From contig NZ_CP047602.1 in NCBI RefSeq assembly GCF_009905255.1, positions 1,723,501-1,787,500 of the forward strand: a stretch of DNA of 64,000 bases. Reading direction: 5' to 3'. The notes under the pieces were generated by a model. That model was not told the DNA's origin. It worked only from the letters and a program-made list of their open reading frames with translations, and made no database searches. This DNA is from Thermoanaerobacterium aotearoense. Its GTDB lineage: Bacteria > Bacillota > Thermoanaerobacteria > Thermoanaerobacterales > Thermoanaerobacteraceae. Positions 17,781 through 52,132 of the stretch are shown here, piece by piece; positions within the stretch are counted from its first letter, which is position 1; each line of letters begins with the position of its first letter. The position numbers were made by a program, and so were the translations under genes.

Positions 17781-18359
17781 TTGAATAACTACAATTCAAA
17801 CAAGTCTTTATCTTTACATTTAAAAAAGCTGACATTAGCATCTATGTTTGCATCAATCACTGTAGTGCTAAGCTTTATAAGTATACCACTTCCTTTCTCT
17901 CCTGTGCCAATAACAGGTCAAACATTGGCATTAATGTTGTCTGGAAGCCTTTTAGAACCAGCAACAGCTTTTTTAAGCATGATCATTTATCTGGCACTTG
18001 GCGCAATCGGAATACCTGTTTTTGCAGGATTTCACGGTGGCATAGGAATACTTATGGGCCCTACAGGTGGATATTTATTGGCTATGCCAATCGCATCATT
18101 TGTCACATCTACAGTATTAAAATATGGAAGGATTAGCTTTTTGAAGCTGATTGTTTCTAATATAATCGGCGGCATAGTGATAGTCTATCTTTTGGGAGTT
18201 CTACAATTAGGTATTGTAGCACAATTAAATTTAAAAAAAGCAATTTTATTAGGTGCACTGCCATACATACCTGGTGATTTTATAAAAGTTTTACTGTCTT
18301 CATACTTAGCTTTAAAATTGATGCCGATATTAAAAAAGCACATAAAAACTGAAAGATGA
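17781..18359 (+). CDS. bioY: Biotin transporter substrate-specificity subunit BioY
   Basis: Membrane S-component of an energy-coupling-factor importer for biotin. I place the start at TTG 17781, seven bases after GGAGGTG, giving 192 residues; an ATG at 17763 has no site. About six hydrophobic segments are present. The family signature runs through PFSPVPITGQTLALMLSG and GGIGILMGPTGGYLLA. No ECF ATPase is adjacent, so a shared module elsewhere is implied. An upstream BirA-like operator supports biotin as the substrate. The 3' end forms one arm of a hairpin shared with larC. Confidence 0.93.
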   Translation: MNNYNSNKSLSLHLKKLTLASMFASITVVLSFISIPLPFSPVPITGQTLALMLSGSLLEPATAFLSMIIYLALGAIGIPVFAGFHGGIGILMGPTGGYLLAMPIASFVTSTVLKYGRISFLKLIVSNIIGGIVIVYLLGVLQLGIVAQLNLKKAILLGALPYIPGDFIKVLLSSYLALKLMPILKKHIKTER

Positions 18360-18379
18360 TGCTTTCAGTTTTTATGTGC
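18338..18379. terminator. Bidirectional terminator overlapping both bioY and larC stop codons
   Basis: An 18-bp perfect inverted repeat (18338-18355 with 18362-18379) around a six-base loop. The inner stem ACTGAAAG/CTTTCAGT is flanked by A5 and T5, giving a U run on either strand. Both coding regions end inside it. Confidence 0.82.
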
Positions 18380-18806
18380 CATCATACTGACGCAAAACAT
18401 TTAAAACAGCCTGCACAGAAAGGCCTGTTTTTTCGGCTATTATTCTTACGTCATCTGACTCTATATGGGATTTTATGAGTTTCCCATCAAGATAACCCAT
18501 TTTGACTCTTACATCACCAAAAGGTGTCCTGATGACCTTGAAATTTCTTTCAAGAGCATATCTATCCACTTTATACTGCCTTAAACCAAATGTAGATGTT
18601 TCTTCGAAAATCACTTTTCTTAAAATATCCAAATTTTCTTCCTTGCAAAGCACAGAAAGCATATTGGCCGGTCTTTGTTTTTTCATAAATATGGGAGTAG
18701 CATAGACATCCAAAGCTCCACTTTTTAAAAGCCTATCAAATATGTACTGATAATACTCCGGGCTCATGTCATCGATATTTGTCTCGAGGATATAAACGGT
18801 CTCTAC
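18372..18806 (-). CDS. larC: LarC C-terminal part, reached by -1 frameshift (nickel insertion protein)
   Basis: Second part of the nickel-pincer cofactor chelatase. Open reading in this frame continues upstream of any start codon to the slippery run at 18806-18812, giving about 144 residues that begin VETVYILETNIDDMSPEYY. ILETNIDDM is a conserved LarC motif and lies before the first ATG (18767), so internal initiation would lose it. Translation therefore most likely arrives from the upstream frame, as reported for larC1/larC2 in Lactobacillus plantarum. The combined product would be about 387 residues, a normal LarC length. The stop is inside the shared terminator with bioY. Confidence 0.85.
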   Translation of the reverse strand, partial: VETVYILETNIDDMSPEYYQYIFDRLLKSGALDVYATPIFMKKQRPANMLSVLCKEENLDILRKVIFEETSTFGLRQYKVDRYALERNFKVIRTPFGDVRVKMGYLDGKLIKSHIESDDVRIIAEKTGLSVQAVLNVLRQYDGT

Positions 18807-19534
18807 TTTTTTTTTAATTCTACAGTACCTATAATCGTCCTCAAAACATTTGGCACTTCAAAATCTTTATTCCCTGCTCCATATCCTATAGATTCAAATT
18901 CACATTCTGGTATCGCTCCAAACTCATGAGCCAATGTTTTAGCTATTGCCGCACCTGTAGGCGTCACAAGCTCACCGCGTACTCCATTATCGTATACAGG
19001 TATGCCTTTTAATAATTCTGCTGTAGCTGGTGCCGGAATAGGTATCAAACCATGCTGGCTTTTCACAAATCCAGACCCTAAAGGCAATTTCGAAAAGATG
19101 ATTTTATCAGGTTTTATCATGTCTACAAGCACAGATGTCCCAACTATGTCAATGATGGAATCTACTGCTCCCACTTCATGGAAGTGAACTTCATGAGGCG
19201 GCATGCCATGGACTTTTCCTTCGGCATCTGCCAAATTGCGAAATATTTTAAGGCTCATCTCTTTTATGTTATCATTTAACAAACTGCCATTTATTATGTC
19301 TTCAATGTCCTTCATGGTCCTGTGATGGTGATGTTCTTCATCAAAGTCGACTTTAAAAGTATTTGCAGTTATCCCATTCTTCTTAGCTGTTCCAAATTTC
19401 AAGCTGTATCCACTTAATGAAAGCTTATTCAGCTCCTCTTTAAATTTGTCTACATCTATGCCATGTCCTAAAAGAGATGAAATAGTCATATCTCCTGAAA
19501 TTCCCGCGAAACAGTCAAAGTACAAAAGCTTCAT
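18803..19534 (-). CDS. larC: LarC N-terminal part (nickel insertion protein)
   Basis: LarC inserts nickel into the pyridinium bis-thiocarboxylate mononucleotide to make the nickel-pincer cofactor of lactate racemase and related enzymes. This 243-residue part starts with the family sequence MKLLYFDCFAGISGDM and contains the metal-type stretch DEEHHHHRTMKDI and PPHEVHFHEVGAVDSI. It ends in KKK then TAG, directly after A_AAA_AAG. The remaining conserved C-terminal domain lies in the -1 frame. It starts four bases after larB with a GGAGAG site, as the last gene of larE-larB-larC. Confidence 0.93.
   Translation of the reverse strand: MKLLYFDCFAGISGDMTISSLLGHGIDVDKFKEELNKLSLSGYSLKFGTAKKNGITANTFKVDFDEEHHHHRTMKDIEDIINGSLLNDNIKEMSLKIFRNLADAEGKVHGMPPHEVHFHEVGAVDSIIDIVGTSVLVDMIKPDKIIFSKLPLGSGFVKSQHGLIPIPAPATAELLKGIPVYDNGVRGELVTPTGAAIAKTLAHEFGAIPECEFESIGYGAGNKDFEVPNVLRTIIGTVELKKK
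18806..18815 (-). other. Programmed -1 ribosomal frameshift site in larC
   Basis: On the minus strand TTA AAA AAA AAG TAG contains the heptamer A_AAA_AAG, the same slippery sequence as E. coli dnaX, abutting a stop. A -1 slip continues as GTA GAG ACC into the conserved C-terminal LarC domain. I saw no convincing downstream stem or close upstream Shine-Dalgarno-like stimulator. Confidence 0.78.
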
Positions 19535-19538
19535 ACAT

Positions 19539-20294
19539 CTACTCTCCTATCCTATTTATCAAACTTGCGGAGTACGCTGCACCAAATCCATTATCAATAT
19601 TGACAACACTGACACCACTTGAACATGAGTTAAGCATCGCGAGAAGAGCCGAAAGCCCATGAAAATTAGCTCCATATCCTACACTTGTGGGTACCGCAAT
19701 GATTGGACATGCGACAAGCCCTCCTACAACGGTAGGCAAAGCACCTTCCATTCCGGCAATGCATATTATGACTCTAAAACTCCTTAGCTCATCCACTTTG
19801 CTCATCAATCTGTGTATTCCAGCAACACCTACATCATATATGCGCTTCACAGTATTGCCCATCAACTCAGCAGTTACAGCCGCTTCTTCCGCAACAGGAA
19901 GATCTGATGTGCCTGCTGCAACAACTCCTATTACACCTTTTGTCTTTTTTGCCTCATTTGCTCTTATTGATATTATCCTCGCCACATCGTAATAAACAGC
20001 ATTATCGCATACTTCCTTTACTGCCTTAAAATGATCCAATGATGCTCTCGTACCTAAAACATCACTGCCTTTTTCGTACATTCTTGCTGCTATTTCTCTT
20101 ACTTGTTCAGGGGTTTTACCTTCGCAGTATATGACTTCAGGGTATCCGCGCCTGACTTCTCTATTGTAGTCTATCTTTGCAAAGCCTAAATCTTCATAAG
20201 GAAGTTTTTTTAACTTTTCTAAAGCTTCATCTAATTTCATGATTCCGCTATTGTACTTTTCTAATACATCTTTTATATAATTATCGTACATCAT
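19539..20294 (-). CDS. larB: LarB, pyridinium-3,5-biscarboxylate mononucleotide synthase
   Basis: First enzyme of nickel-pincer cofactor synthesis: it carboxylates and hydrolyses nicotinate adenine dinucleotide. The 251-residue protein has the PurE-like C-terminal half with GVIGVVAAGTSDLPVAEEA, MEGALPTVVGGLVACPIIAVP and the glycine-rich GYGANFHGLSALLAMLNSC. Its start overlaps the larE stop by 14 bases, indicating translational coupling. The gene order larE-larB-larC differs from the L. plantarum larABC(MN)QO-E cluster, and no larA is in view. Confidence 0.93.
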   Translation of the reverse strand: MMYDNYIKDVLEKYNSGIMKLDEALEKLKKLPYEDLGFAKIDYNREVRRGYPEVIYCEGKTPEQVREIAARMYEKGSDVLGTRASLDHFKAVKEVCDNAVYYDVARIISIRANEAKKTKGVIGVVAAGTSDLPVAEEAAVTAELMGNTVKRIYDVGVAGIHRLMSKVDELRSFRVIICIAGMEGALPTVVGGLVACPIIAVPTSVGYGANFHGLSALLAMLNSCSSGVSVVNIDNGFGAAYSASLINRIGE

Positions 20295-21114
20295 TTATCA
20301 ACTCCGCTACGGCTTCATTCATGCTGCCTGTCCTATACCCTTCAAGATCAAGAGCTACATATTTAAACCCTATCTCTTTTAATTTTGAAACTACATTTTT
20401 TCTCACAGATTCATCCAGCATCATGTTAATCTGTCTTTGGTCAAGTTCTATTCTGGCAATATCCCCATGATGTCTTACTCTAAAACCTACAAAGCCTAAA
20501 TTCAAAAGATATTCCTCCGCTTTATCCACCATAGACAATTTTTCATCTGTTATTTCCTGCCCATAAGGAAAGCGAGAAGAAAGACATGCATAAGCAGGTT
20601 TGTTCCAAGTCGGAAGTCCCAAAATTTTAGACATCTCTCTTATATCGTTTTTCGTAAATCCGCACTCCAATAAAGGACTTTTTACGCCTAATTCCCTTGC
20701 TGCGCGCCTTCCAGGTCTGAAATCTCCTGTGTCATCGTAGTTTGTGCCGTCAAGAACATACTTAATGCCTTCCTCATCTGCCACATTTTTTAACTTTGAA
20801 AACAATTCGCTTTTGCAATAATAACACCTATCTATAGGATTTTTTGAAAAGCCTTCTATCTCCAACTCCTCAGATCTTATGACTTTATGCCTTATACCAA
20901 TTTCTTTGGCCAATTCTTGCGCTTCTCTAAATTCTCTTTGCGGATATGTAGAAGATGTAGCAGTAACAGCTAAACATCTATCCTTAAGAACATCATAGCA
21001 GACTTTTGCAAGAAAAGTGCTATCAACTCCTCCGGAAAAAGCTATGACAGCACTTCCAAGTTTTTCTATGTACTTCTTTAAATTTTCGTATTTTTCTTCA
21101 AGTTTCATAGCCAT
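20281..21114 (-). CDS. larE: LarE, ATP-dependent sulfur transferase for nickel-pincer cofactor
   Basis: PP-loop ATPase that adenylates the cofactor precursor and adds the sulfur atoms. The 277-residue protein has the loop SGGVDS at residues 27-32. Three cysteines stand out: Cys97 and Cys100 (CYYC) and Cys177 (AYACLSSRFP). Cys177 corresponds to the sacrificial Cys176 of L. plantarum LarE. With the CxxC pair the set resembles the 4Fe-4S-type LarE of Thermotoga maritima, which could work catalytically. A second ATG two codons in is better spaced from GAGGGGG, so the true start may be 21108. Confidence 0.92.
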   Translation of the reverse strand: MAMKLEEKYENLKKYIEKLGSAVIAFSGGVDSTFLAKVCYDVLKDRCLAVTATSSTYPQREFREAQELAKEIGIRHKVIRSEELEIEGFSKNPIDRCYYCKSELFSKLKNVADEEGIKYVLDGTNYDDTGDFRPGRRAARELGVKSPLLECGFTKNDIREMSKILGLPTWNKPAYACLSSRFPYGQEITDEKLSMVDKAEEYLLNLGFVGFRVRHHGDIARIELDQRQINMMLDESVRKNVVSKLKEIGFKYVALDLEGYRTGSMNEAVAELINDVR

Positions 21115-50677: not shown

Positions 50678-50890
50678 AATATGATAAAATACCATATAAT
50701 TATAATGAATATAATTTTTTTACTACAATCTTAAATATTTTTACTTGTTAATGTAAAAAAAAAACATAGTCAAATGCGACAAAAAAACGCCTTAATATTA
50801 TGTTAGTCTTATAAGTATGATTTATTGACTTATTCAAAGTGTGAGAGTAAATTTTATTTATAAACAATTACATATGTTGGAGGGATTATA

Positions 50891-52132
50891 ATGAATGCGG
50901 ATGCTGCAGATAAATTAAAACACCGCAAAGGAATCGCCAAAATAAAGTTAGTTAAGAAAGATGGTTCACCTATAAAAGATGCAGAAGTCGCTGTATCTCA
51001 GGTGAAGCATAAATTTTTATTTGGTTGTGGAGCATTTGATTCTCTTCCTCTTGCCAATGGTGAATTGAAAGAAAATGATAAAGAAAAAATTGAAGACCGT
51101 TTTGAGAAATTTTTTGACTTATTTAACTATGCTACGATTCCATTTTATTGGGGCAGGTTCGAGCCTGAAAAAGGAAAGCCAGACACAAATAGACTCAAAA
51201 AGGCTTCAGAATGGCTTGTATCAAAAGGTTGCCTTGTAAAAGGCCATCCACTTTGCTGGCATACTGTAACAGCACCTTGGCTCTTAGATATGAGCAATGA
51301 AGACATATTAAAGGCTCAGCTATCCCGCATAAAACGTGAAGCAAGTGATTTTAAAGGATTAGTGAATATATGGGATGTAATAAATGAAGTTGTCATAATG
51401 CCTATTTTTAATAAGTACGACAATGGAATAACCAGGATATGCAAAGAATTAGGACGTATTCGCCTCGTAAAAGAAGTTTTTAATGAAGCTAAAAAAGCTA
51501 ATCCTGAAGCAGTTCTCCTTATAAATGACTTTAATACATCAATTTCATATGAAATACTCATAGAAGGATGCCTTGAAGCTGGAATCCCTATTGATGCCAT
51601 AGGGATCCAATCACACATGCATCAAGGATATTGGGGAGTTGAAAAAACTTTAGAAGTACTCGAAAGATTTTCGCATTTCAATATTCCATTGCATTTTACA
51701 GAAAACACATTATTATCAGGGCATTTGATGCCACCTGAAATAGAAGACCTAAATGACTACCAGATAAGTGATTGGCCTTCAACACCTGATGGGGAAGAAC
51801 GACAAGCAACGGAAGTCGTAAAACATTATAAGACTCTCTTTTCACATCCAATGGTAGAATCAATCACATGGTGGAATTTCTGCGATGAAAATGCATGGCT
51901 TGGTGCGCCTGCAGGCCTTCTTAGAGAGGACAATTCATGCAAGCCATCATATTACGAATTAAAAAAGCTTATTAAAGACGAATGGTGGACACATCAAACA
52001 CGTCTTGTCACAAGCAATACAGGTGAATTCGAATTTACAGGCTTTTTAGGAGAATATGAATTAATCATTAATGATAGAAAATTTCATTTCAATTTAGATA
52101 AAAACGACATATCAATAGAAATAACAGTCTAA
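50891..52132 (+). CDS. Intracellular GH10 endo-xylanase-like enzyme
   Basis: A 413-residue glycoside hydrolase with no signal peptide, so probably cytoplasmic. A short N-terminal beta domain (GIAKIKLVKKDGSPIKDAEV) precedes the barrel. YWGRFEPEKGK, KGHPLCWHT, WDVINEV (acid/base Glu166) and HFTEN (nucleophile Glu271) mark GH10. The nucleophile motif lacks the usual ITELD, suggesting altered specificity. It probably trims imported xylo-oligosaccharides. It is divergent from the importer and convergent with xynA, with which it shares a terminator. GGAGGG precedes the ATG. Confidence 0.9.
   Translation: MNADAADKLKHRKGIAKIKLVKKDGSPIKDAEVAVSQVKHKFLFGCGAFDSLPLANGELKENDKEKIEDRFEKFFDLFNYATIPFYWGRFEPEKGKPDTNRLKKASEWLVSKGCLVKGHPLCWHTVTAPWLLDMSNEDILKAQLSRIKREASDFKGLVNIWDVINEVVIMPIFNKYDNGITRICKELGRIRLVKEVFNEAKKANPEAVLLINDFNTSISYEILIEGCLEAGIPIDAIGIQSHMHQGYWGVEKTLEVLERFSHFNIPLHFTENTLLSGHLMPPEIEDLNDYQISDWPSTPDGEERQATEVVKHYKTLFSHPMVESITWWNFCDENAWLGAPAGLLREDNSCKPSYYELKKLIKDEWWTHQTRLVTSNTGEFEFTGFLGEYELIINDRKFHFNLDKNDISIEITV

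Follow-up and report, generated by a model that had tools for sequence, protein, structure and literature searches.

The larC gene of Thermoanaerobacterium aotearoense, which is split between two reading frames, is probably a single gene, whose full-length product LarC would be made by a programmed slip at a conserved run of nine A's (A9) where the two frames meet. The stretch analysed, hereafter the window, comprises 64,000 nucleotides of the T. aotearoense genome (NZ_CP047602.1, 1,723,501-1,787,500), and positions given below are window positions unless a genome coordinate is stated.

A split larC within the lar operon

The lar genes and the larC split are on the minus strand throughout (Table 1). 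The gene order larE-larB-larC1 forms a tight operon, followed by larC2 and then by a terminator-like hairpin, and a LarA-like protein (Lar_N) is encoded elsewhere in the genome (G000:C1:339748-340329). Family membership (PF01969), together with this setting of larB, larE and a distant larA, places the predicted larC product in the LarC nickel insertion family, and CTP-dependent nickel insertion is the activity predicted for it from the family.

The 3' end of larC1 reads GAA TTA AAA AAA AAG TAG, with the TAG (18803-18805) abutting the run, and both A_AAA_AAA and A_AAA_AAG lie in the LarC1 frame at A9. The -1 frame is open across the run, where it reads KKKVETVYILETNIDDMSPEYY..., and extends to a stop at 18372; its first ATG encodes the M of NIDDM, and opens a reading frame of 131 amino acids (18767..18372). 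The reconstructed read-through product is 387 amino acids long, and the peptide spanning its junction, ELKKKVETVYILETNIDDM, includes KKKVETV. Against the PF01969 profile, LarC1 covers positions 1-235 (316 bits) and LarC2 positions 241-374 (165 bits), such that the two matches are consecutive and non-overlapping. LarC1 alone matches residues 19-255 of a full-length LarC chain in the PDB (12bi_D), while the read-through product aligns to nearly the whole length of that chain (299 bits), with the A-run falling between the parts that match LarC1 and LarC2. An earlier, sequence-only reading of this DNA had placed the split gene at 18372-19534, with an N-terminal frame ending TTA AAA AAA AAG TAG, a -1 frame running on into ILETNIDDM and the rest of LarC, and a first ATG too late to include that motif. 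Its coordinates are all confirmed, on the minus strand, and the profile and the 12bi_D alignment, nearly end to end, bear out the continuation into LarC.

Table 1. Features of the lar locus, in window positions.
Feature	Position	Strand	Basis
larE	20281..21114	(-)	NCBIfam TIGR00268, 349 bits
larB	19539..20294	(-)	NCBIfam NF033503, 307 bits
larC1, N-terminal part of LarC, 243 aa, end ...GTVELKKK*	18803..19534	(-)	ORF; NCBIfam TIGR00299 nickel_LarC1, 226 bits
A9 slippage run (putative) at the larC1/larC2 junction	18807..18815	(-)	sequence; conservation in relatives
larC2, C-terminal part of LarC, -1 frame, reading KKKVETVYILETNIDDM...	18372..18815	(-)	NCBIfam NF052512 nickel_LarC2, 157 bits
LarC2-frame stretch from the A-run to the first ATG, VETVYILETNIDDM	18765..18806	(-)	no ATG/GTG/TTG ahead of the final M
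Intrinsic terminator-like hairpin at the larC2 end, 19 pairs and T-tail	18337..18380	(-)	strong

Conservation of the A-run across larC genes

The junction was read at 81 larC loci, most of them belonging to one and the same phylum as the window; 40 are split and 41 fused. A run of A8 to A11 is found at the junction in 38 of the 40 split genes, and in the other two, both from Lachnospiraceae (L060 and L061), LarC2 has an ATG of its own. A run of at least eight is absent from 34 of the 41 fused genes (Fisher p 1.6e-13 against the split ones, kinship being ignored). Among the 38 split loci with an A-run its length is at least 8 and mostly 9, a check limited by having one genome per species, the longest run in a region also being the one likeliest to be mis-sequenced. 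The nucleotide 3' of the run is G, C or T in relatives, and on the evidence of these junctions what is conserved is a stretch of eight or more A's, not the A_AAA_AAG heptamer. Mapped onto a maximum-likelihood tree of LarC, the A-run split requires 14 changes, and well-supported branches force at least 10 of these. Gain or loss of the run must therefore have happened repeatedly; run-less fused relatives are interspersed among split ones, including two (G020 and G022) from the window's own order.

LarC2 lies in the -1 phase at 33 of the 38 loci, in nearly every lineage, and in the +1 phase at the other five, with A8 in T. wiegelii, T. thermocopriae, Caldanaerobacter subterraneus and the genome G029, and A11 in G021. 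The sequence-only reading had expected A8 or A10 to give one uninterrupted frame; A10 does, but A8 puts LarC2 in the +1 frame. For Caldanaerobacter and G029, comparison with a sister genome over 14-20 kb revealed no other frame-breaking homopolymer. The A8 of T. wiegelii and of T. thermocopriae is doubtful, because the first assembly carries several homopolymer frame breaks and dnaX is broken in the second. Some run-length differences may thus be assembly errors, which is suspected for these two genomes and demonstrated for T. saccharolyticum NTOU1 (see below). The T. wiegelii larE (L055, 1690-1705) itself loses its frame at an A7 where a close relative has A8, by assembly error or as a pseudogene. 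In a Caldicellulosiruptor-like genome (G027; L017/L093), A9 is kept yet larC is fused, with an extra A just 3' of the run that is apparently a natural compensating indel.

No ATG, GTG or TTG was found in the LarC2 frame ahead of LETNIDDM in any Thermoanaerobacterium examined. Between the run and the ATG, variable sites at codon positions 1/2/3 of the LarC2 frame number 4/2/11 in Thermoanaerobacterium and 2/0/7 in Thermoanaerobacter. This third-position bias, in a stretch where translation cannot start, implies that it is read in the LarC2 frame, and therefore that the two frames must be joined. It is well supported by these comparisons that selection acts on the LarC2 N-terminus despite its lack of a start, and that recoding joins LarC1 to LarC2.

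Sequencing error, chance and other explanations

A9 is present in identical phase in seven other Thermoanaerobacterium genomes (G001, G002, G004-G008), several of them single-contig. The length of the run, which the sequence-only reading had singled out for comparison across species, is thus constant among these congeners, but spans A8 to A11 in split larC genes more widely. The sole fused larC of the genus is that of T. saccharolyticum NTOU1 (G003), recorded with A10 and with a LarC1 that is 97% identical, and I considered this allele as a refutation of the split. Relative to the window, three long A/T runs within 7.5 kb of the NTOU1 assembly (in larC, larB and pgsA) are each one base longer; the extra bases break the frames of larB and pgsA, and dnaX and alaS are broken as well. 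The NTOU1 A10 is untrustworthy because its assembly carries many such homopolymer-length errors, and the allele was dropped as unsuitable evidence (L007, L050, L091-L092, L149, L179-L180). That the T. aotearoense gene is truly fused with A10, and that its split comes from a sequencing or assembly error, is a reading for which only the NTOU1 record speaks; set against the frame breaks of that assembly and the congeners' A9, it is extremely improbable. On this comparison the larC split in T. aotearoense is not a sequencing slip.

Nor is the presence of the run due to chance. The whole 2.67 Mb genome holds 28 distinct runs of at least nine A's on both strands, against ~316 expected from the dinucleotide content of the window, a depletion of ~11-fold, and larC has the only A9 within coding sequence of the window. 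Two other runs of the genome, the A9 in dnaX (L089, G000:C1:2594792-2594800) and the A10 in alaS (L077, G000:C1:1289030-1289039), served as controls: both sit in intact frames in T. aotearoense and are absent from congeners, whereas the larC run is kept across all the other Thermoanaerobacterium genomes. These two were tried as further slippage genes and, for want of conservation in congeners, treated as chance. Since both sit in frame here, slipping at such runs must be affordable, which counts against a programmed slip at larC. Outside any long reading frame, the genome also carries a run of 41 A's (G000:C1:584315-584355, L070), which is very unusual given how few long A-runs this genome otherwise tolerates. 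Within the window, a GH10 glycosyl hydrolase gene (50891-52132) is preceded, at a distance of ~130 bases, by an A10 (50755-50764).

A true split could also belong to a decaying or phase-variable gene, with DNA replication slippage switching LarC on (A10) or off (A8 or A9). Close sister species in the Caldicellulosiruptor-like group do show A9 and A10 (and A8), as such switching would produce. However, the eight credible Thermoanaerobacterium genomes are all A9, where a random phase would leave about a third at A10, and the LarC1 and LarC2 halves are both intact and conserved; a degraded second frame in related strains, which the sequence-only reading had named as evidence against recoding, was not seen. 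Phase variation or decay is highly improbable on these grounds. Only slightly better placed, and still very unlikely, is the proposal that LarC2 is a separate protein, started at the ATG at 18767 and acting with LarC1, with no need of a frameshift. It is favoured by the Lachnospiraceae loci L060 and L061, in which LarC1 and LarC2 are encoded apart, each with its own start and with no A-run, and by TTG or ATG codons just ahead of ILETN in some Thermoanaerobacter. In T. aotearoense, the first start follows LETNIDDM up to its last residue, and would cost LarC2 its most conserved motif, even though that motif evolves as codons of the LarC2 frame. Moreover, 20 of the 38 A-run split loci have a start-less LarC2, and the A-run would have no role. 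With no start codon before LETNIDDM, separate translation of LarC2 was rejected for T. aotearoense. The arrangement in L060 and L061 suggests in its own right that the LarC1 and LarC2 parts can work as separate chains.

Slippage by the ribosome or by RNA polymerase

Programmed slippage at the A9 would operate as follows. When no slip occurs, the ribosome would stop at the TAG after the run and release the 243-residue LarC1. When RNA polymerase stutters on the T9 template, one A would be added to the mRNA and LarC1 joined to LarC2; alternatively, at the same run, the ribosome would move back by one on A_AAA_AAA or A_AAA_AAG, joining the same frames. The joined product would be the 387-residue LarC, the protein that equips the nickel-pincer cofactor, itself a product of LarB and LarE, with its nickel. 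I infer from the DNA the level at which the slip takes place, its efficiency, and a separate role for LarC1; it is plausible that slippage sets the ratio of short to full LarC, as the sequence-only reading had proposed.

A ribosomal slippery heptamer is satisfied by 6-7 A's, and frameshift stimulators are common but not obligatory. Runs of about 8-9 A's are in the length range where RNA polymerase slips. At larC, the zero frame contains an X_XXY_YYZ heptamer, downstream of which the -1 frame is open and homologous, and -1 ribosomal slippage is possible because A_AAA_AAA and A_AAA_AAG are both correctly framed. Folding of the 60 and 90 nt downstream in T. aotearoense gave z-scores of -0.7 and -1.4, with no stimulator signal, and no consistent signal of a shared structure was found in the 60/90 nt downstream and 30/50 nt upstream of the run across the 38 loci. 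A purine-rich Shine-Dalgarno-like element at the usual spacing upstream of the run is absent in T. aotearoense. The lack of an obvious stimulator, remarked on by the sequence-only reading, therefore holds in the folding of all 38 loci. Runs of at least eight A's kept in 38 of 40 split loci are what is expected of transcriptional slippage, for which the run should stay at about 8-9 or more across relatives. The five +1-phase loci may reflect tolerance of either phase; of the four covered by the assembly checks, two pass (Caldanaerobacter and G029) and two are doubtful (T. wiegelii and T. thermocopriae), the fifth locus being that of G021.

That the frames are joined purely by -1 ribosomal frameshifting at A_AAA_AAG or A_AAA_AAA, with no slip at the RNA level, is a serious possibility, albeit one I regard as somewhat unlikely. 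Both heptamers are correctly framed with a stop immediately 3', the -1 phase of 33 of the 38 A-run split loci is a direct prediction of ribosomal slippage, which polymerase slippage fits only if insertions are favoured, and members of this family frameshift in E. coli reporters (Antonov et al., PMC3711429). Against it stand the missing downstream structure and upstream Shine-Dalgarno-like element, a run length of at least eight in all 38 loci, and +1-phase relatives that are unable to use a -1 shift. These features of the junctions would point beyond a -1 ribosomal slip, and it is rather likely that slippage by RNA polymerase contributes most or an equal share. For the +1-phase loci, one can imagine a ribosomal shift of +1 or -2 at the run, but it would be unusual. 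A bolder and doubtful extension is that larC in these thermophilic, Clostridia-like bacteria is indifferent to phase, with the run drifting between A8 and A11 in the DNA, and two-way polymerase slippage yielding a mixture of LarC1 and LarC from every phase. If true, split and fused alleles would be functionally near-equivalent, and what is conserved would be the mixed output and not full-length LarC as such.

Because the phase of the run varies among split larC genes, ordinary RNA-seq could decide between ribosome and RNA polymerase, and the matter is relevant to a possible independent function of the short LarC1 in making the nickel-pincer cofactor. It also touches annotation, where such larC genes appear either as a pair of genes or as broken ones.

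DUF111 is, in Pfam naming, the same family as PF01969, namely LarC. A DUF111 cluster was reported in 2013 by Antonov et al. to undergo programmed frameshifting, which reached 39% at most when measured with reporters in E. coli, and is described as two adjacent annotated genes with poly-A sites and fused homologues elsewhere (PMC3711429); its main text leaves the species tested unnamed. The larC described here has the same protein family, paired-gene annotation, poly-A site and fused homologues. Recoding of T. aotearoense larC is thus known in kind, frameshifting in the family being already published. The comparison adds the A-run of at least eight as the conserved element, the 10 or more changes of the split on the tree, and the variable phase: a run-length threshold, repeated gain and loss, a change of phase and a role of RNA polymerase were not found for larC in the portions of the literature consulted. 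The larC of Lactiplantibacillus plantarum is reportedly read by -1 frameshifting, in work by Desguin et al. Its larC1 and larC2 are named in the lar operon (PMC3496567), a split larC in the same setting as in T. aotearoense.

The sequence-only reading had likened the site to the -1 signal of E. coli dnaX. Recoding and the in-frame heptamer stand, and like dnaX the gene would yield a short and a long product from A_AAA_AAG; the specificity of that signal is not supported, with a variable G, runs of at least eight and +1-phase relatives. Unlike E. coli dnaX, larC has no Shine-Dalgarno-like element and no 3' stem-loop, and its A-run is longer than needed, with a G that is not conserved in relatives. 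Other parallels are the dnaX of Thermus thermophilus, where transcriptional slippage takes place on an A9 (PMC5009743), and the IS1447 element of C. thermocellum, where cDNA contained ~16% A10 and ~16% A8 from an A9, a slip at the mRNA level (PMC6211511); both share with larC an A9, a thermophilic host, and no need of a ribosomal stimulator. The IS1447 host is another thermophilic clostridial species, and its measured slip is a precedent for RNA-polymerase slippage at larC. IS1447 requires a +1 shift and larC here a -1 shift, and in T. thermophilus dnaX the unslipped product is the long one, whereas in larC it is the short one.

LarC1-like genes without an adjacent LarC2, and with no terminal A-run, were also found (L096, L098, L099, L100, L106, L107 and L108). 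Among the genomes with such lone LarC1-like proteins, G145 and G153 possess a second, full-length LarC.
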